The notes beneath the pieces were generated by a model. The model worked only from the letters and a program-made list of their open reading frames with translations. It was not told where the DNA came from and ran no database searches. Source: Acholeplasmatales bacterium (lineage in GTDB: Bacteria; Bacillota_I; Bacilli_A; Acholeplasmatales; Anaeroplasmataceae). From it: DNA of 43,274 nt. Made by a program: the position numbers and the translations under genes. The stretch lies in contig JAFSJY010000088.1 in assembly GCA_017449215.1 (NCBI GenBank), forward strand, positions 1-43,274, written 5' to 3'. Every line of letters starts with the position of its first letter. Within the stretch, counting starts at the first letter, position 1. This document shows, in pieces, positions 17,150 through 37,811 of this stretch.

Positions 17150-18253
17150 ATGGCTTTAACAGCAGGTATAGTAGGTTTACCTAACGTTGGTAAATCAACT
17201 TTATTTAATGCAATTACAAAGGCTGGTGCTTTAGCAGCAAATTATCCATTTGCGACTATTGAACCAAATGTAGGTATGGTAAATGTACCAGATGAAAGAC
17301 TAGATGTTTTAACAAAAATGTATAATCCTAAAAAATCTACTCCAGCAGTATGTGAATTTACAGATATCGCAGGTTTAGTTAAGGGTGCGTCTAAGGGTGA
17401 AGGCTTAGGTAACCAATTTTTAGGTAATATCAGAAACTGTGATGCTATTCTAGAGGTAGTTAGATGCTTCGAGGATTCTAATGTAACTCACGTTGAGGGT
17501 GGAGTTGATCCAGTTAGAGATGCTGAAATTATTAATTTAGAATTAATTTTAGCTGATTTAGCCATGGTTGAAACTAGAATACCTAAGATTGAAAAGAAGG
17601 CACAATCAAAGATTGATGATGCACCAATTGAATATGCACTACTTCAAAGATTAAAGAAGCTATTAGAGGAAGAAAAGCCAGCAAGAGCTATTGGTGAATT
17701 ATCTGATAAGGAACAAAAGTTCTTTGCTAATTATCAATTATTAACAGCTAAACCATTTATGTATGTAGCTAATGTAAAGGAGGATTTTATCGCAAATCCA
17801 GAAGAAGATCCTAACTACATGAAGCTTAAGGCTTACGCAGATAAGACGAATTCTAAGATAATTGGTATTTCAGCTGAGATTGAATCTGAGCTTGCTCAAT
17901 TAGATGATGAGGAAAAGGAAATGTTCTTAGCAGATTATGGTGTATCTGAACCAGGCTTAAATAAGCTTGTAAGAGCAACATATGATTTATTAGGCTACGC
18001 AACATTCTTTACAACAGGTCCTGATGAATGTAGAGCATGGACATTTAAGAAGGGTATGCTAGCTCCTCAGTGTGCTGGTGTAATTCATACAGATTTCGAA
18101 AGAGGATTCATTAGAGCTGAAACTACTGCATATGATGATTTAATCAAGTGTGGTTCAGCCCTAAAGGCTAAAGAAGCAGGCCTTGTAAGACAAGAAGGAA
18201 AAGACTATAAGGTACAGGATGGAGATATCCTATTCTTCAAATTTAATGTTTAA
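17150..18253 (+). CDS. ychF: Redox-regulated ATPase YchF
   Basis: A 367-residue Obg-related P-loop NTPase that prefers ATP and binds ribosomes. G1 motif GLPNVGKST is at 9-17; 'NYPFATIEPN' covers switch I, 'DIAGLVKGASKGEGLGN' covers G3, and the C-terminal TGS domain is complete, ending 'VQDGDILFFKFNV'. The G4 position shows 'YVANVKED' rather than NKxD, as usual in YchF and the reason for ATP use. It lies 19 bp after ppa, probably sharing its promoter, and is followed by a terminator. Confidence 0.95.
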   Translation: MALTAGIVGLPNVGKSTLFNAITKAGALAANYPFATIEPNVGMVNVPDERLDVLTKMYNPKKSTPAVCEFTDIAGLVKGASKGEGLGNQFLGNIRNCDAILEVVRCFEDSNVTHVEGGVDPVRDAEIINLELILADLAMVETRIPKIEKKAQSKIDDAPIEYALLQRLKKLLEEEKPARAIGELSDKEQKFFANYQLLTAKPFMYVANVKEDFIANPEEDPNYMKLKAYADKTNSKIIGISAEIESELAQLDDEEKEMFLADYGVSEPGLNKLVRATYDLLGYATFFTTGPDECRAWTFKKGMLAPQCAGVIHTDFERGFIRAETTAYDDLIKCGSALKAKEAGLVRQEGKDYKVQDGDILFFKFNV

Positions 18254-18256
18254 AAT

Positions 18257-18282
18257 TACCGGTTTTATACCGGTTTTTTTAT
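18257..18282 (+). terminator. Terminator of ppa-ychF
   Basis: Stem ACCGG / CCGGT with a TTTTATA loop and a run of seven T. Confidence 0.8.
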
Positions 18283-18566
18283 TGGGAAAATGGTTTATTT
18301 TTTCTAATGAATCAAATAAGATTATTTATTGATAAAAACTACCATATTTTGGTATAAAAATTAGGTAATTTTTAGATGAATAATATGCCATTTATTTATT
18401 AAAATTAGATACCATCAAAAAATTAGTTTGATTTATGAAAACGCTAAATTCCATAAATTTTTGTTATTAGAATTATTGCGTAAAAACCATCCGTTTCATT
18501 GAAAAAAGTAGGGTTTTTTAATATAATTAAAATGTATGATTTTAAGCGAATGGAGGAAGTAAAACA
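18283..18566 (+). promoter_or_regulatory. AT-rich leader and promoter of the JetABC-SepF operon
   Basis: A gap of about 280 bp, unusually long here. The promoter is TTGAAA (18499-18504), 17 bp, TATAAT (18522-18527). Upstream are an imperfect hairpin at TACCAT/TTGGTA (about 18341-18356) and a cre-like TGAAAACGCTAAAT (18436-18449; one mismatch to the CcpA consensus). No gene or RNA was recognised in the rest. Confidence 0.6.
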
Positions 18567-19985
18567 ATGGATTTTTTTGATATGGTCCCAGATAACTTCT
18601 TTTCCTTATTAGCATCTAAAAATAAGAGAATATATTTAGCATCTATTCTTGAAGTTTTTAAGGTATACGAAACAGGTACAATTTTAGGTATTGATAAGAA
18701 GGTTGTAGTTGATGATTTAGTATACTTTTTAGACACTCATAAAAATTATTTTTACGATGTCGAAGATGAAGAGGATGAAGAATCTAATCCAAGCAATAAA
18801 AGAGAACTCGCAAATTATATTTTAAGAAGAATGGAAGAAACAGGTTGGATCTATGTAGATGTAACAAATGATTATATGGAGGTCTTGAATTTCTCAGACG
18901 ATGCCATAATCCTTTGTGAAGCAATTTTAAATGCTTATCCAGAATTTGAATACACGGATGATTCTGAGATTCCAGCCGATTTTATAAATGTCAATGAATA
19001 TAAGGGTTATATTTATAACATCTATTCATTACTTAACCAAACAGATAATGTTGATTACGCTACTACATTTAGCCTAGTATATTCAGATACTAGAAAGCTT
19101 ATTAGAGCTTTAAGAAAGCTAGATGCAAGAATGAAGGATTATATTACATCTGTTGTCGATAATACTGAAATTAAGGATTTAATGGAAAAACTTATCACAT
19201 ATAAGAATGAGATTTATGATAAGAGCTATTCTAAATTAAAGATTCAGGATAATATCGATAGATATAGATTATCAATTATTACTAAGCTAGAGGATATGCA
19301 AACTAGTGAGGTTGTAGTTAGATCTATTAGCTATAACTATTTAGAGTATTCTAAATCTCCTGAAGAGGCTATCGATAAGGCAATTAAGCAAATCGATGAG
19401 GTTATCGATGCATTTAATGCAATTGAGGACTTCGTACTTGAAATCGATAAGAAGAATAGAGATTATATCAATTCAACTATTGGTAAGATTAAGTTCTTAT
19501 TATCTGAGGAAGATAATATTATTGGTAAATTAAATTCTATCCTTAAATTCGTTCATGATTCTAATAAGAAGAATAAGATTGATAGAAGCTTAAGATTAGT
19601 GAATGAGTTATATGAATTACCTGAGCTTAAGATATTAGAAAATGAGAAGTCTTTATATACACCTCGTGGTAACTATACTAGAAACTATAATCAATATCTA
19701 GATGATTTAGGATTTGATGGCTTCGAGATGGATGAAGAATTCATGAAGCAATTTAAGAATTCTTATAATGAGGATGAAATTAAGAAATTCCTAGAATATC
19801 ATATGATGGATGATTTATTTAAAGCATCATTCGTTCTTAAATATGATTCAGATAGAGATTTCTTCTTAATGTGTATCTATTCTTTAATCTACGCAGCAGA
19901 GCATAATTATTTAGTTAAGATTTTAGATAGCTTTGTAGACTTAAAGGATTATAAGATTAAGGATTTCGAAATAAGAAGAAAGTAA
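18567..19985 (+). CDS. jetA: JetA-like (MukF/MksF-type) kleisin subunit of an SMC complex
   Basis: A 472-residue protein of the JetA/DUF5716 type, the kleisin-like subunit that bridges the heads of a Wadjet or Mks SMC dimer. The N-terminal 'NFFSLLASKNKRIYLASILEVFK', shown here in part as NFFSLLASKNK, is the typical opening. Then come an acidic linker (75-82), 'RRMEETGWI' in a winged-helix-like segment, 'YKGYIYNIYSLL', and a long helical middle. The C-terminal third, with 'FFLMCIYSLIYAAEH', could be the second winged helix. It is the first gene of a four-gene operon, with GGAGG before the ATG. The assignment comes from order (A-B-C), sizes and motifs; sequence divergence is high. Confidence 0.85.
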   Translation: MDFFDMVPDNFFSLLASKNKRIYLASILEVFKVYETGTILGIDKKVVVDDLVYFLDTHKNYFYDVEDEEDEESNPSNKRELANYILRRMEETGWIYVDVTNDYMEVLNFSDDAIILCEAILNAYPEFEYTDDSEIPADFINVNEYKGYIYNIYSLLNQTDNVDYATTFSLVYSDTRKLIRALRKLDARMKDYITSVVDNTEIKDLMEKLITYKNEIYDKSYSKLKIQDNIDRYRLSIITKLEDMQTSEVVVRSISYNYLEYSKSPEEAIDKAIKQIDEVIDAFNAIEDFVLEIDKKNRDYINSTIGKIKFLLSEEDNIIGKLNSILKFVHDSNKKNKIDRSLRLVNELYELPELKILENEKSLYTPRGNYTRNYNQYLDDLGFDGFEMDEEFMKQFKNSYNEDEIKKFLEYHMMDDLFKASFVLKYDSDRDFFLMCIYSLIYAAEHNYLVKILDSFVDLKDYKIKDFEIRRK

Positions 19986-19997
19986 GAGGAGATAAAA

Positions 19998-20582
19998 ATG
20001 CTAGATTCTTTAGAAAAAATGACAATAACACAGCAGGGTCAATTTAAGGATACTGCTAATAAGCTTTTAGCTAATACATTCTTATCAAGAGATAAGAAGG
20101 ATAATAAGGAAGCATATTATTTCCTTATGAGCTATAAAGAGGTATTTGATGAATTCTTTAAAATATTAGGCTATGAAATTGAGCTTGATATTCAGCTAGG
20201 TGCTGTTAAGCTTTCTGGTGCTTCAGCAGCTAACACATTAAAGCTAAAAAGAGATGAATCATTAGTTTTATTAATTTTAAGACTTTTATATCATGAGAAG
20301 ATGAAGGATACTTCATTAAATGAAAACATCGTTTGTGCTGTATCTGATATTCATACTAAGTATGATAATCTTGAAATTAAGAAGAAACTAAATAAGACTG
20401 ATTTAATTTCATCTTTAAGATTATTAAGAAGATATAACCTAATTGAAATTATTGGTGATGTTACAACATCAACTTGTAGATTAGTAATTTTACCTACTAT
20501 ATTAATGGCTATTAAGTCTGAGGATGTTACTGAGGTATTTAATACTATTAATAAGATTAATGCTGAGGAGGCTCAATTATAA
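19998..20582 (+). CDS. jetB: JetB-like (MukE/MksE-type, DUF4194) subunit
   Basis: A 194-residue DUF4194 protein, the MukE-like partner that binds the kleisin and DNA. It is predicted to be two winged-helix units: 'LLANTFLSRDKKDNKEAYYF', then 'KRDESLVLLILRLLYHEK', and 'LISSLRLLRRYNLIEIIGDV' towards the end, the usual DUF4194 pattern. It follows jetA by 12 bp with AAGAGGAG before its ATG. Its stop overlaps the next gene's start (TAATG at 20580-20584), so translation of the SMC is probably coupled to it. Confidence 0.87.
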   Translation: MLDSLEKMTITQQGQFKDTANKLLANTFLSRDKKDNKEAYYFLMSYKEVFDEFFKILGYEIELDIQLGAVKLSGASAANTLKLKRDESLVLLILRLLYHEKMKDTSLNENIVCAVSDIHTKYDNLEIKKKLNKTDLISSLRLLRRYNLIEIIGDVTTSTCRLVILPTILMAIKSEDVTEVFNTINKINAEEAQL

Positions 20583-23500
20583 TGAAAAAGTTAGTTAAAA
20601 TAAGATTAATTAATTGGCATTATCTTGCTAACGAAACAATTTTAATTAATGGTAATACATTATTAACTGGTCCTAACGCATCAGGTAAATCAACTATCAT
20701 GGATGCCATTACTTATATCCTAACTGCTGGTGATACAAACTTTAACCTTGCCGCTAATGAAAAGGGTAAGCGTGATCTAAGAGGTTATGTTAAATGTAAG
20801 CTAGGTATGGATGATAAGGAATATTTAAGAAATGGTGATGTTTCAGGTCACGTTGCCTTAGAGTTCCTAGATGAGAAGACTGGCTTAGCATTTACAGTTG
20901 GTGCTGTATTAGATGCATTTGGTGATTTAACTCCTGTTAAGACAATCTTCTATAAGTCTAATTCACCTATCAATGATTCTATGTTTATTTCTGATGATAA
21001 GACTATCTATGGTACAGTAGAATTTAGAAAGCATAATCCTGACTTTGAATATTTCTTAACAAAGAAGGAAGCTAAGCGTGGATTTAGAAATGCATTTGGT
21101 TCAATCAATGAGGATTTCTATAGATTAATTCCAAAGGCTTTAGCATTCAAGCCTATCGCTGATGTTAAGGAATTTATTTATCAAAATATTCTAGAAGAAA
21201 AGGAAATCGATGTAACAGCAATTAAGGATTCTATTCGTGCTTATAAGGAATTAGAAATTACCTTAAAGCAAATCCAAGCTAAGATTGCTGACTTAAGAGA
21301 AATCGATGTTGTATATCAAGAAATACTTAAAATTGAAGAGAATAAGACTTATCTAGAATATTTAATGCATCTATTTGATGTAGAAAAGATTAGAAATGAA
21401 ATTAATGATAAGAGAAAGGCTATCTTAAAGGAAGAATCTTTAAGAGAGGCTAAGAATCAAGCTATTAGAGATATCGAAACTGAAAAGCTTGGCCTTCAGG
21501 AGCGTGCTAGAGAGCTTTATAATATGCTTTCTAATAATGAAACATTTAAGGCTTCTGAATATGTTTCTAATCAAATTATTAAGACAAAGGCTAATATTGA
21601 AAATCTAGAGCAGAATGAGCAATTATTCTTAAAGAGAACCTCCCAATTTAAGGATACTGTTAATCAATTAAAGAAATTATCTAATGAAAAGCTATATGGT
21701 GAATTAGCAGCTGTTAATTTATCATTAATCAATGCTAATCAGGTAGAGGATACTAAGGTTAGATTAAGAGATATTTCTACTAGATTATCTGCATTCATTA
21801 ATAAGAAGAACCAGGATTTAGGTAAACTACAATCTCAAATCGCTGATGTTGTTAATGAAATCTCTCAAATTTCTGCAAGTGTTAGAAATTTAAGTCAAAA
21901 TAAATTAAATTATAACCCTCAATTAACTATGATGAGACAAGAAATCCAAGAAGGCTTAAAGAGAGTTTATAATTATGATGTATCAGTTCATATCGTAGCT
22001 GAATTATGTGAAATCACTGATCCTAAATGGGCAGACGCAGTTGAAGTATTCTTAGGTAATAGAAGATTCAATATGATTGTTGAGCCTAGATATTTCGATC
22101 AAGCATTACAAATCTTTAATAGAATTAAATCTAAATATAGATTATATGGTATAGGTTTAGTCAATACTAAACAAATTTCTAAATTTACTGATTTTGAAAA
22201 GAATTCAGTAGCTTCAATTATTGAAACTGAGAATAAGGATGCTAGATGCTTCATCAATTATTCAGCTGGTAATGTTATCATGGTTGATGATGTAACTGAG
22301 CTTGAATTATATAATACAGCTATTACTAAGGACTTCTTAATTTATAGAGGATATACTGTAACACAGATGAATCCAAATATTGAGCGTCCATTCATGGGTA
22401 AGAATGCTGCACAAAAGCTTGCTGAACAAATGAATCAAAAGGCTGTAAGTGCTAAGTCTAGATACAATGAATTAAATGAACAAGTAACTTCTTTAACTCA
22501 AGAAATTGATTTATTAGATTCATTAAATGTTAATCCATTAATTGAAGACTTAAATAAGGCATTAGAATTAGCTAAGGAAAAGGCTGCTCTTCAGGATTTA
22601 ATCAAGGAAGAGAAGCGTGCTAAGAATGCAACTCCTACTGATTTAGAGGATGATTATAATAAGGTTCAGGATACAATCAAGAAGAATGATGAAAAGAAGA
22701 TGCAATATGGTATGGACCTAGGTGGTATCAAGAGCCGTATTGAAGCTTACAATGCTGAAATCTTATTAAAGACTCAAGAGCTAGAAAGCTTATCTAATGA
22801 TTTAAAGAAGCTTGCTGGTGACAATGCTGAAATCATTGAACGTGCAAAGGCTGAATATCAACATATCATTGAAGGTCAATCTTTCAAATCAGCTTTAGCT
22901 CAATATGAGGAAAGATATAGAGTTGAGCAATCAACATATAATACTTTAGGAGAAACTATTATTGCTAAGCAATATGCTTATATCAATAAATATAATTCTA
23001 CTTTAGCTGTTGGTTTATCTGAAATTAGTAAATTTGAGGCTGAATTAAATAAACTAGAGAAATCAGAATTAATTAAATATGAGCAGAAGGTTCGTCAAGC
23101 AAGAGAATCTGCTGAAGTAGTATTTAAGGAAGACTTCATTGCTAAACTAAGAAATAATATCTTAACAGCTGAACAAGAAATTGGAAAGATTAATGAAACA
23201 TTAAAGAATATTACATTCGGTAATGATCATTATGAATTCATATTCCCAAGATCTTCTGAATATGCCCAATTCTATGACATGGTTACTTCAGATTTAGCTG
23301 ATATTAATCAAGGTCTATTCACTTATGATTTCCAAACAAAGTATGATGAGCAAATCAGAGAATTATTTGATTCATTATCAATGGATGAATTAAATTCTGG
23401 TGGTGCTATTAATAAGTTTACTGATTACCGTACATACATGGATTATGACATTAGAATTACTAACGGTGATGGTGATTCAATGACATACTCTAAGGTATTT

Positions 23501-23845
23501 AAGGAAAAATCCGGTGGTGAAACACAGGTTCCATTCTATGTAGCAATCATCGCTTCATTCGTAAGAGTATATACAAAGACATCAATTGTTGGTGGAGACC
23601 CAATTGGCATTGTAATGTTCGACGAGGTATTCGATAAGATGGATGGTAACAGAATGCGTGCAATGATGAGATTCATTACATCAATGCCACTTCAGGTATT
23701 AATTGCCTGCCCTCCTCAAAGAATGGATATCCTACAAGAATTCTCTGATACAACATTAATCATGGTAAGACAAGGTACTAAGGCTGCCGTATTACCTGCC
23801 TTAAAGAAGGAACAGGATGAAGATTCTGAGGAGGAAGAGGCTTAA
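20582..23845 (+). CDS. jetC: JetC-like (MukB/MksB-type) SMC ATPase
   Basis: A 1,087-residue SMC-like ATPase. Walker A GPNASGKST is at 30-38, then two long coiled-coil arms separated by a hinge-like globular region around 450-600. The C-terminal head has the ABC signature KSGGETQ (976-982) and Walker B 'IVMFDEVFDKMD' (1010-1021) with the catalytic Glu. The 'NWHYL' start and the KSGGE head are typical of JetC/MksB rather than canonical SMC, and the length suits JetC. The last residues are strongly acidic (EQDEDSEEEEA). Known relatives form JetABC or MksFEB motors that extrude loops on circular plasmids or the chromosome. The stop overlaps the next ATG (TAATG at 23843-23847). Confidence 0.92.
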   Translation: MKKLVKIRLINWHYLANETILINGNTLLTGPNASGKSTIMDAITYILTAGDTNFNLAANEKGKRDLRGYVKCKLGMDDKEYLRNGDVSGHVALEFLDEKTGLAFTVGAVLDAFGDLTPVKTIFYKSNSPINDSMFISDDKTIYGTVEFRKHNPDFEYFLTKKEAKRGFRNAFGSINEDFYRLIPKALAFKPIADVKEFIYQNILEEKEIDVTAIKDSIRAYKELEITLKQIQAKIADLREIDVVYQEILKIEENKTYLEYLMHLFDVEKIRNEINDKRKAILKEESLREAKNQAIRDIETEKLGLQERARELYNMLSNNETFKASEYVSNQIIKTKANIENLEQNEQLFLKRTSQFKDTVNQLKKLSNEKLYGELAAVNLSLINANQVEDTKVRLRDISTRLSAFINKKNQDLGKLQSQIADVVNEISQISASVRNLSQNKLNYNPQLTMMRQEIQEGLKRVYNYDVSVHIVAELCEITDPKWADAVEVFLGNRRFNMIVEPRYFDQALQIFNRIKSKYRLYGIGLVNTKQISKFTDFEKNSVASIIETENKDARCFINYSAGNVIMVDDVTELELYNTAITKDFLIYRGYTVTQMNPNIERPFMGKNAAQKLAEQMNQKAVSAKSRYNELNEQVTSLTQEIDLLDSLNVNPLIEDLNKALELAKEKAALQDLIKEEKRAKNATPTDLEDDYNKVQDTIKKNDEKKMQYGMDLGGIKSRIEAYNAEILLKTQELESLSNDLKKLAGDNAEIIERAKAEYQHIIEGQSFKSALAQYEERYRVEQSTYNTLGETIIAKQYAYINKYNSTLAVGLSEISKFEAELNKLEKSELIKYEQKVRQARESAEVVFKEDFIAKLRNNILTAEQEIGKINETLKNITFGNDHYEFIFPRSSEYAQFYDMVTSDLADINQGLFTYDFQTKYDEQIRELFDSLSMDELNSGGAINKFTDYRTYMDYDIRITNGDGDSMTYSKVFKEKSGGETQVPFYVAIIASFVRVYTKTSIVGGDPIGIVMFDEVFDKMDGNRMRAMMRFITSMPLQVLIACPPQRMDILQEFSDTTLIMVRQGTKAAVLPALKKEQDEDSEEEEA

Positions 23846-24159
23846 TGTTTGGTAAGAAGAAAAAGGAAGAGGAAATCATTTCTAAATCAAGCGAAAGAAT
23901 TCGTCTTGATAAGATGAAGGATAATGATGAGTTCGCAAGAGACATCATCATCGATATTAAGAATGGTATTCCTTGTGTAATTAACTTTGAAGGCCTAGAG
24001 GAAGAAGCTGGAAATAAATATTTAGCATTCCTTGAGGGTGCCGCAGTTGCCCTAGAGGGTAAGACTGTTAAGATTAATGAATTCACATACCTTTTTGCTA
24101 AAAAAGAGGATTTCATGGATGGTTCATTAAGAGAATGGATTAACAATATTCCAAAGTAA
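23845..24159 (+). CDS. SepF-like protein in the JetABC operon
   Basis: A 104-residue protein whose residues about 26-95 align without obvious gaps to the SepF core (DUF552). Compare 'EFARDIIIDIKNGIPCVINF' with B. subtilis SepF 'AQEIADHLKNRRAVVVNL', 'NKYLAFLEGAAVALEGKTVK' with '[20 protein letters not shown]', and 'FTYLFAKKEDF' with 'DIFLCTPDNV'. SepF tethers FtsZ to the membrane and aligns the septal ring. Differences: the first 25 residues are highly charged (MFGKKKKEEE) with no obvious amphipathic membrane helix, and the conserved GG of the core is EG. It is coupled to jetC by a TAATG overlap and ends the operon. The homology is seen in the sequence; a link between the SMC motor and division is inference. 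Confidence 0.75.
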   Translation: MFGKKKKEEEIISKSSERIRLDKMKDNDEFARDIIIDIKNGIPCVINFEGLEEEAGNKYLAFLEGAAVALEGKTVKINEFTYLFAKKEDFMDGSLREWINNIPK

Positions 24160-24163
24160 GATT

Positions 24164-24197
24164 GATGGCTAGTGTTAAACTAGCCATTTTCTTTTTC
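24164..24197 (+). terminator. Terminator of the JetABC-SepF operon
   Basis: Nine-bp stem ATGGCTAGT / ACTAGCCAT, loop GTTAA, then TTTTCTTTTT. It closes the operon straight after the SepF-like gene. Confidence 0.85.
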
Positions 24198-24301
24198 CTT
24201 AAAAAAAAATAAAAATTCTAAATAAGATCGATGTAGACTTTCAAACTAGTAGTTTTCTATTTATGTAAGTAGCTTTCATATAAAATATTACATAAGTAAT
24301 A

Positions 24302-24330
24302 TTGCAAGCGTTTTTTCGTCGTGTTAAAAT
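24302..24330 (+). promoter_or_regulatory. Promoter of the uracil permease gene
   Basis: TTGCAA (24302-24307), 17 bp, TAAAAT (24325-24330). The leader is only about 28 bases, too short for a riboswitch or PyrR attenuator. I see nothing else in 24198-24301 apart from a short hairpin at ATATTAC/GTAATAT. Confidence 0.6.
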
Positions 24331-24364
24331 AATACGTGGGTTTTCAGGAGGAGAAAATAAAATT

Positions 24365-25786
24365 ATGGAAAAACTATTGTATGATGTAAAAGACAGACCA
24401 CCATACCATAGAATTATCATATTTGCATTCCAGCAATTACTTGCTATTCTAGCAGCTACAATTGCTGTACCTGCAATTATCGGTAATGGTATGAGTCAAT
24501 CAGCAGCATTATTTGGTGCTGGTGTTGGTACATTAGTGTACTTGTTATTTACAAGATTTAAGAGCCCTGTATTCTTGGGTTCATCATTTGCCTTCTTAGG
24601 TAGTATGGCTGCGGCATTCGCTGGTGCTGTTACTGTTCAAGTTGGTTATTTAGGATTAATTATGGGTGCGGTTTTAGCAGGCTTAGTTTATGTTGTAATC
24701 GCATTAATAGTTAAAAAGGCTGGTACAGCTTGGATTAATAAGATTATGCCAGCAGTAGTAATTGGACCTACAGTTGCTATTATAGGTTTATCACTTGCTG
24801 GTAATGCAGTTGGTGATTTAATTGGTTCAACTGCAGATGGATTTGGCACATTTAATTATGTTTCAATTATTTGTGGTTTAATCACAATGTTTACTACAAT
24901 CGTAGTATCTGTATTCTCAAAGAAGTTCTTTAAGGCTATTCCATTCATCATTGGTATTTTAGCTGGTTATGCGGTTGCTGCTATTTTTACAGGTATTGGT
25001 GCGGCAGCTGATAATGCTTCATTAAAGATTATTAATTTCGAGTTATTTAAGGATATGAAGTGGTTACCTGATTTCACATTCATTGAAGCTTTCAAGGGCT
25101 TTAAGGATTTTGAATCAGCTGGTGATTTCTTCTCATTCTTTGGTACAGTAGCTGTTGCTTATATTCCAGTTGCCTTCGTATGCTTTGCTGAGCATATCGC
25201 AGACCACAAGAACCTATCAACAGTTATCGGTCATGACTTATTAGAAGATCCAGGTCTTTCTAACACATTATTAGGTGATGGTGTTGGTTCTATAGCAGGT
25301 GCTTTCTTCGGTGGTTGTCCTAATACAACTTATGGTGAATCAGTTGGTTGTGTTGCCATTTCTAAGAATGCATCAGTTATAACAATTTTATGTACATCTA
25401 TTTTATGTATGGTATTAGCATTCGTAGCTCCTTTTGTTACATTACTTGCAACTATTCCAAGCTGTGTAATGGGTGGTGTATGTATCGTATTATATGGTTT
25501 CATCGCTGTATCAGGATTAAAGATGATCAAGGATGTAGATTTAGGTGATAACAGAAATCTATTCGTTGTATCAGTTATCTTAATCTGTGGTGTAGGTGGA
25601 ATGGTAGTATCATTCGGTAAGGTAACTATTACTGAGGTTGCTTGTGCTTTAATCTTAGGTATTATAACTAATATTATTTGTAATATTGGTAAAAATAAGG
25701 AAGAAGTTAAGCCAGCTAAGGTAGAAGCTGAATTCTCTGAATCAGTAGAAGCTACTGAAGAAAAAGAAGATATAGTAGAATTATAA
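24365..25786 (+). CDS. uraA: Uracil permease (NCS2/NAT family)
   Basis: A 473-residue nucleobase:cation symporter-2 protein with about 14 hydrophobic segments. The N-terminal 'QQLLAILAATIAVPAIIG' matches uracil permeases, 'FAEHIADHKNLS' carries a substrate-binding Glu, and 'GGCPNTTYGESVG' is the NAT signature with the second binding region. The start at 24365 is set by AGGAGGAGAAAATAAA just upstream; an in-frame ATG at 24302 lies in the promoter. The acidic C-terminal tail is cytoplasmic. Uracil is the best substrate guess; xanthine or other bases cannot be excluded. Single-gene unit with its own terminator. Confidence 0.88.
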   Translation: MEKLLYDVKDRPPYHRIIIFAFQQLLAILAATIAVPAIIGNGMSQSAALFGAGVGTLVYLLFTRFKSPVFLGSSFAFLGSMAAAFAGAVTVQVGYLGLIMGAVLAGLVYVVIALIVKKAGTAWINKIMPAVVIGPTVAIIGLSLAGNAVGDLIGSTADGFGTFNYVSIICGLITMFTTIVVSVFSKKFFKAIPFIIGILAGYAVAAIFTGIGAAADNASLKIINFELFKDMKWLPDFTFIEAFKGFKDFESAGDFFSFFGTVAVAYIPVAFVCFAEHIADHKNLSTVIGHDLLEDPGLSNTLLGDGVGSIAGAFFGGCPNTTYGESVGCVAISKNASVITILCTSILCMVLAFVAPFVTLLATIPSCVMGGVCIVLYGFIAVSGLKMIKDVDLGDNRNLFVVSVILICGVGGMVVSFGKVTITEVACALILGIITNIICNIGKNKEEVKPAKVEAEFSESVEATEEKEDIVEL

Positions 25787-32071: not shown

Positions 32072-32181
32072 ATATGCTTCGGGGTTTGGTGTAATTCCAT
32101 ACCGGCGGTAAAGTCCGCGAGCTTATGCATGAATAGGTGAAATTCCTATACCGACAGTAGAGTCTGGATGAGAGAAGTCAT
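32072..32181 (+). ncRNA. FMN riboswitch (RFN element)
   Basis: Canonical RFN blocks in order: GCTTCGGGG, ATTCCATACCGGCGGTAA, AGTCCGCGAGC, a short variable stem, then GGTGAAATTCCTATACCGACAG (shown in pieces: GGTGAAATTCC, TACCGACAG), GAGTCTGGATGAGAGAAG. The closing helix pairs the ATG-CTTC region with GAAG-TCAT. It senses flavin mononucleotide and lies upstream of ribU, separated by a terminator, so binding should stop transcription. Confidence 0.95.
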
Positions 32182-32205
32182 TTTAAAAACTTTTTTTAGA
32201 AACTA

Positions 32206-37736: not shown

Positions 37737-37811
37737 AGCAGCTTAGCCAAGTGGTAAGGCACTGGACTCTGACCCCAGCATTCATAGGTTCGAACCCTAT
37801 AGCTGCTGCCA
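37737..37811 (+). tRNA. tRNA-Gln (CTG anticodon)
   Basis: Acceptor stem AGCAGCT / AGCTGCT, D arm GCC...GGC with AAGTGGTAA, anticodon loop CTCTGAC giving anticodon CTG, T loop TTCGAAC inside ATAGG / CCTAT, discriminator G73 and an encoded CCA. G73 and the AGCCAAGTGGTAAGGCA block are normal for glutamine tRNAs. The anticodon stem has an A-C mismatch at its base next to the loop (31-39). Confidence 0.93.

Follow-up and report, generated by a model that had tools for sequence, protein, structure and literature searches.

A JetD-less Wadjet-type operon as a probable replacement condensin in Anaeroplasmataceae

Introduction

Does a Wadjet-type motor encoded without its nuclease defend the cell, or does it organise the chromosome? 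The question is raised by an operon in an Acholeplasmatales bacterium, in which jetA, jetB and jetC are followed by sepF in the place of jetD. The operon lies in a window of 43,274 nucleotides, the whole stretch of DNA analysed here, which comes from contig C82 of a 2.05-Mb draft genome (88 contigs, 98.7% complete). The original prediction, made from the letters of the window, offered two readings: a housekeeping condensin rather than a defence system, or a defence system with JetD elsewhere in the genome.

Two chromosome-organising complexes frame the question. MksBEF of P. aeruginosa is thought to be JetABCD minus JetD and organises chromosomes (PMC10586767, PMC7485682), and MukBEF of enterobacteria, a KITE-type condensin, is said to have replaced Smc-ScpAB (PMC10586767). 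A review has speculated that both descend from Wadjet defence complexes (PMC10586767). Here, we compare the gene content, inheritance and genomic company of the JetD-less operon across its family, order and class.

Results

Genes and borders of the jet operon

The locus is read on the forward (+) strand. It begins downstream of ychF (17150–18253), apparently the ancestral neighbour of sepF, with jetABC now between the two. A sequence scan found a terminator-like hairpin at 18258–18274, which parts ychF from the jet operon, and a promoter-like site ahead of jetA (TTGAAA-17-TATAAT, 18499–18527; 11/12, a consensus match only). The prediction that ychF lies upstream holds, although these two elements separate it from jetA. 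The first gene, jetA (18567–19985), encodes an MksF-like kleisin (PF18982, E = 1.2e-64; PADLOC JetA1, E = 4e-99), and jetB (19998–20582) an MksE-like KITE subunit (PF13835 (DUF4194), E = 2.7e-28; PF21980 MksE, E = 8e-7; PADLOC JetB1). An MksB-like, SMC-like ATPase is encoded by jetC (20582–23845), which PADLOC JetC1 matches over its full length (1003 bits over 1–1083). One-base overlaps join jetB to jetC and jetC to sepF (23845–24159; PF04472).

The operon ends at an intrinsic terminator (24164–24188) with a 10-bp stem and a U-rich tail. Its fold energy of −17.1 kcal/mol (z = −4.4) was equalled by 0/200 shuffles, confirming the strong terminator foreseen directly after the SepF-like gene. The row jetA-jetB-jetC-sepF closes there, and JetD is missing from the operon as predicted: the jetA, jetB, jetC order is that of Wadjet type I, but no jetD adjoins jetC. 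The next gene, an open reading frame (ORF) for a uracil permease (24365–25786), lies outside the operon and shows that no jetD follows. In the gap between sepF and the permease there is no further ORF on the + strand, and the − strand holds only ORFs of 59 and 20 amino acids; a jetD hidden in this gap was rejected on that check. The permease has a good ribosome-binding site (AGGAGGAG from 24347, ahead of the ATG at 24365). The prediction was right about the permease as next gene, while a promoter of its own is plausible only: the candidate at 24302–24330 is a 9/12 match at chance level, with 45 promoter-like matches in the region against 45.7 expected from shuffled sequence. Elsewhere in the window are an FMN riboswitch (32072–32183) and a tRNA (37737–37808).

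The motor is intact and under purifying selection

The JetC of the window retains its Walker A (GPNASGKST), signature (SGGE) and Walker B (FDEVF) motifs, and all three ATPase motifs were found in 68/70 JetD-less JetCs. Set against the closest relative, jetA (compared over a partial copy), jetB, jetC and sepF of the window give dN/dS values of 0.05–0.08; the four genes are under purifying selection. These values and the intact motifs led us to reject the idea of a decayed remnant. The parts of an MksBEF/MukBEF-type condensin are all present, namely an SMC ATPase with intact motifs, a kleisin and a KITE subunit, with the nuclease absent.

Sequence-profile comparison identified the JetC structures 8as8 and 8dk2 as solved relatives of JetC. 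MukB is only distantly similar (3euj matches profile positions 863–1055), and JetA alone and JetB alone gave no convincing solved relative by sequence. As a test of JetD contact, we inspected JetB N-termini for an IFDR motif; none was evident in operons with or without JetD.

Every genome of the family carries the JetD-less operon, inherited vertically

We sampled 113 genomes of the order (completeness ≥ 85%), 36 of which belong to the family of the window. Family and order labels rest on matching sequences: f1 is Anaeroplasmataceae and f22 Izemoplasmatales. From genome size and placement, we infer that f2 is Acholeplasmataceae and its small-genome genus g16 phytoplasma. Named records in the window's group comprise Anaeroplasma bactoclasticum and other Anaeroplasmataceae or Acholeplasmatales metagenome-assembled genomes (MAGs); Izemoplasmatales MAGs appear in the JetC clade next to it.

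JetC is present in 93/113 genomes of the order, including 36/36 of the family. All JetD-less family loci that we read have the order jetA-jetB-jetC-sepF, a few of them cut by contig ends, and often lie 3′ of ychF. In a tree of 95 JetC sequences, the window's JetC falls in a 36-row clade (SH-aLRT 100) whose every member lacks JetD. This clade gathers all JetD-less JetCs of the family, of f21 and of Izemoplasmatales, with the family as a single branch inside it. Other JetD-less JetCs fall elsewhere, those of f2 in one clade and those of f9/f19 and Haloplasmataceae in others. JetD-bearing JetCs lie outside the window's clade, in agreement with a 50-row tree, and the unrooted trees need only 3–4 changes of JetD state. 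Divergence of JetC, JetB and JetA follows that of ychF (rho 0.78–0.86; JetC Mantel rho 0.86, 0/999). By these sequence comparisons, the JetD-less jetABC is vertically inherited in the family. Two loci of small-genome g16 members (L069, L070) keep jetB and jetC with no recognisable jetA alongside.

A second, complete operon in the same genome

A PF09983 search found a single JetD in the window's genome. It lies on contig C70 (G000, L002) inside a complete jetABCD operon, whose JetC is only 28% identical to that of the window and is among those outside its clade. Close by are two restriction enzymes, GmrSD and one of type ISP, along with a UvrD-like helicase that also carries a nuclease domain; the type ISP gene seems shortened. 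These surroundings form a defence island, and this one genome therefore carries both a defence Wadjet and a JetD-less operon. JetD is indeed elsewhere, as the prediction had allowed, but with its own jetABC.

Across the order, JetD is present in 7/113 genomes, 5 of them in the family. Four of the five family JetDs lie within a separate jetABCD operon; the fifth, a JetD-like gene in G096 (L254, 947–2212), follows an unrelated ORF at the start of a contig where jetABC would stand. The JetCs of jetABCD operons within the family share only 25–56% identity. Strict co-occurrence of JetD with the JetD-less operon, which the original prediction had named as its own refutation, does not occur: JetD is found in 5/36 family genomes, the operon in 36/36.

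Smc is missing from the order and ScpB from the window's genome

We called Smc by the TIGR02168 cut-off (567 bits) and ScpB by PF04079. Smc reaches the cut-off in 0/113 genomes of the order, whereas ten control genomes pass; the window's JetC scores 48 bits. Profile searches of the window's genome found neither Smc nor ScpB. The absence of canonical Smc-ScpA-ScpB, named in the original prediction as a mark of a main chromosome organiser, is thereby borne out for Smc across the order and for ScpB in the window's genome, the two proteins covered by the search.

A class sample of 296 genomes gave a wider view. Smc is present in 143/296 and ScpB above its cut-off in 142/296, the latter tracking Smc in all but a few genomes. 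JetC occurs in 83/296, 10 of which are Smc-positive. Among these JetC-positive genomes, JetD accompanies JetC in 8/10 with Smc versus 6/73 without it (Fisher p = 3e-6, uncorrected for relatedness). In Haloplasmataceae, Smc and a JetD-less jetABC occur together; Haloplasma contractile (G148; L236, L237) encodes a full jetABCD in addition to these two. This gene set is a possible intermediate state.

Neither Smc nor JetC was found in 80/296 genomes of the class. Within that sample, we found no Smc, no JetC and no ScpB above cut-off in f3 (which belongs to the window's order, as a sister family), f7, f14, f17 and part of f9. One f14 genome, G312, has Smc, with ScpB absent and contamination possible. 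In the order sample, neither Smc nor JetC was found in 10/23 small-genome g16 members, the ScpB search having covered the class sample. Genomes without Smc and JetC, possibly condensin-less bacteria, include the single-contig G105, G123 and G151. PF13558 (SbcC_Walker_B) matches in such genomes were considered as hidden condensins and rejected, all five examined being SbcC. As f3 and other families show no condensin, loss of Smc does not force replacement, and essentiality of JetABC does not follow.

sepF probably preceded jetABC at the locus

The fourth gene, predicted to be SepF-like, is a genuine SepF: it has the PF04472 domain, its AlphaFold model reaches a pLDDT of 90, and Foldseek matches it to the solved SepF structures 6sat and 3zih. 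It shares this domain and fold with SepF elsewhere, the membrane anchor of FtsZ, and differs in standing 3′ of jetC. Its N-terminus is short and basic (MFGKKK; MGLF in kin), resembling f2 SepFs. In each of the 36 family genomes sepF is single-copy, and in 36/36 its domain lies 72–185 nt 3′ of the JetC match, with the one-base overlap present in many.

Where we read sepF loci from other families of this order, the genes run ychF-(yggS)-sepF-ileS. The simplest account of this arrangement is that jetABC was inserted between ychF and sepF, which corrects the original prediction in one respect: this is the ordinary and sole sepF, and it probably stood behind ychF before jetABC arrived. SepF identity hardly tracks ychF (rho 0.21), unlike the Jet proteins, and the JetD-less jetABC operons of Izemoplasmatales and f2 have no adjoining sepF. 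The jetC–sepF pairing is conserved, but may have originated as an accident of position.

Discussion

No nuclease accompanies this motor, which is found throughout the family, descends vertically and occurs in genomes without Smc and ScpB. On these grounds we propose that JetD-less Wadjet-type JetABC replaced a lost Smc-ScpAB as the chromosome-organising condensin of Anaeroplasmataceae and of Izemoplasmatales, whose JetCs belong to the same clade. We give this reading a probability of about 0.7. JetABC would be loaded onto chromosomal DNA, where ATPase cycles of JetC would drive loop extrusion, with JetA as the kleisin and JetB as the KITE subunit of the complex. It would thereby aid compaction and the separation of sisters, and with JetD absent, extrusion would end without a cut. 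The jetABC genes would be transcribed together with sepF. The missing Smc and ScpB, together with the universality of the operon, support a role in chromosome organisation and segregation, and favour the housekeeping condensin of the original prediction over its defence system. Two observations count against replacement: Haloplasmataceae hold a JetD-less jetABC alongside Smc, and the sister family f3, among others, has no condensin that we could find. Most of the relatives compared are also draft MAGs.

The operon resembles Wadjet type I in its JetA, JetB and JetC subunits, their order and their length, and JetA1, JetB1 and JetC1 are its top models. Those PADLOC names and the intact motor would also suit a complex still engaged in defence, which might sense small circular DNA and rely on an unlinked nuclease, or block plasmids uncut. 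We consider this unlikely: the operon lacks any nuclease gene, and is universal, vertical, under purifying selection and set in a housekeeping neighbourhood, whereas the JetABCD of the same genomes is patchy and divergent. It is highly improbable that the JetD of C70 works in trans for both JetABC complexes. The genome does have a JetD, but one accompanied by all its own subunits and partnered with a very different JetC, and 31/36 family genomes have the operon with no JetD at all.

The constant company of the only sepF, often overlapping jetC by one base, could instead mean that a physical link or a dosage effect couples JetABC to SepF and the Z-ring, the main job of the complex being septal rather than genome-wide. 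The presumed prior presence of sepF, its absence beside the JetD-less operons of Izemoplasmatales and f2, and the failure of SepF identity to follow ychF as the Jet proteins do make this quite improbable. Anaeroplasma and its kin are wall-less gut bacteria. A version in which JetABC serves as the only condensin, with functional coupling to SepF, so that loop extrusion and Z-ring anchoring form one co-expressed module in these wall-less cells, is conceivable but doubtful.

As a replacement condensin, JetABC would resemble P. aeruginosa MksBEF, a kleisin-KITE-SMC trio with a known chromosome role; P. aeruginosa retains Smc, whereas the window's genome has neither Smc nor ScpB. It would also resemble enterobacterial MukBEF, though with a motor of Wadjet type. 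In the open-access literature, with subscription papers mostly outside the search, we found no report of a JetD-less Wadjet motor as a condensin in these bacteria. A practical warning follows from the PADLOC scores, as models built to find defence systems give a Wadjet call to an operon whose role appears to be housekeeping.

One bacterial class displays several states at once: JetABCD alongside Smc; both JetABCD and a JetD-less JetABC alongside Smc (Haloplasmataceae); a JetD-less JetABC without Smc (Anaeroplasmataceae, Izemoplasmatales and f2); and no condensin found. Because these states coexist in a single class, a switch from defence to housekeeping becomes testable there.
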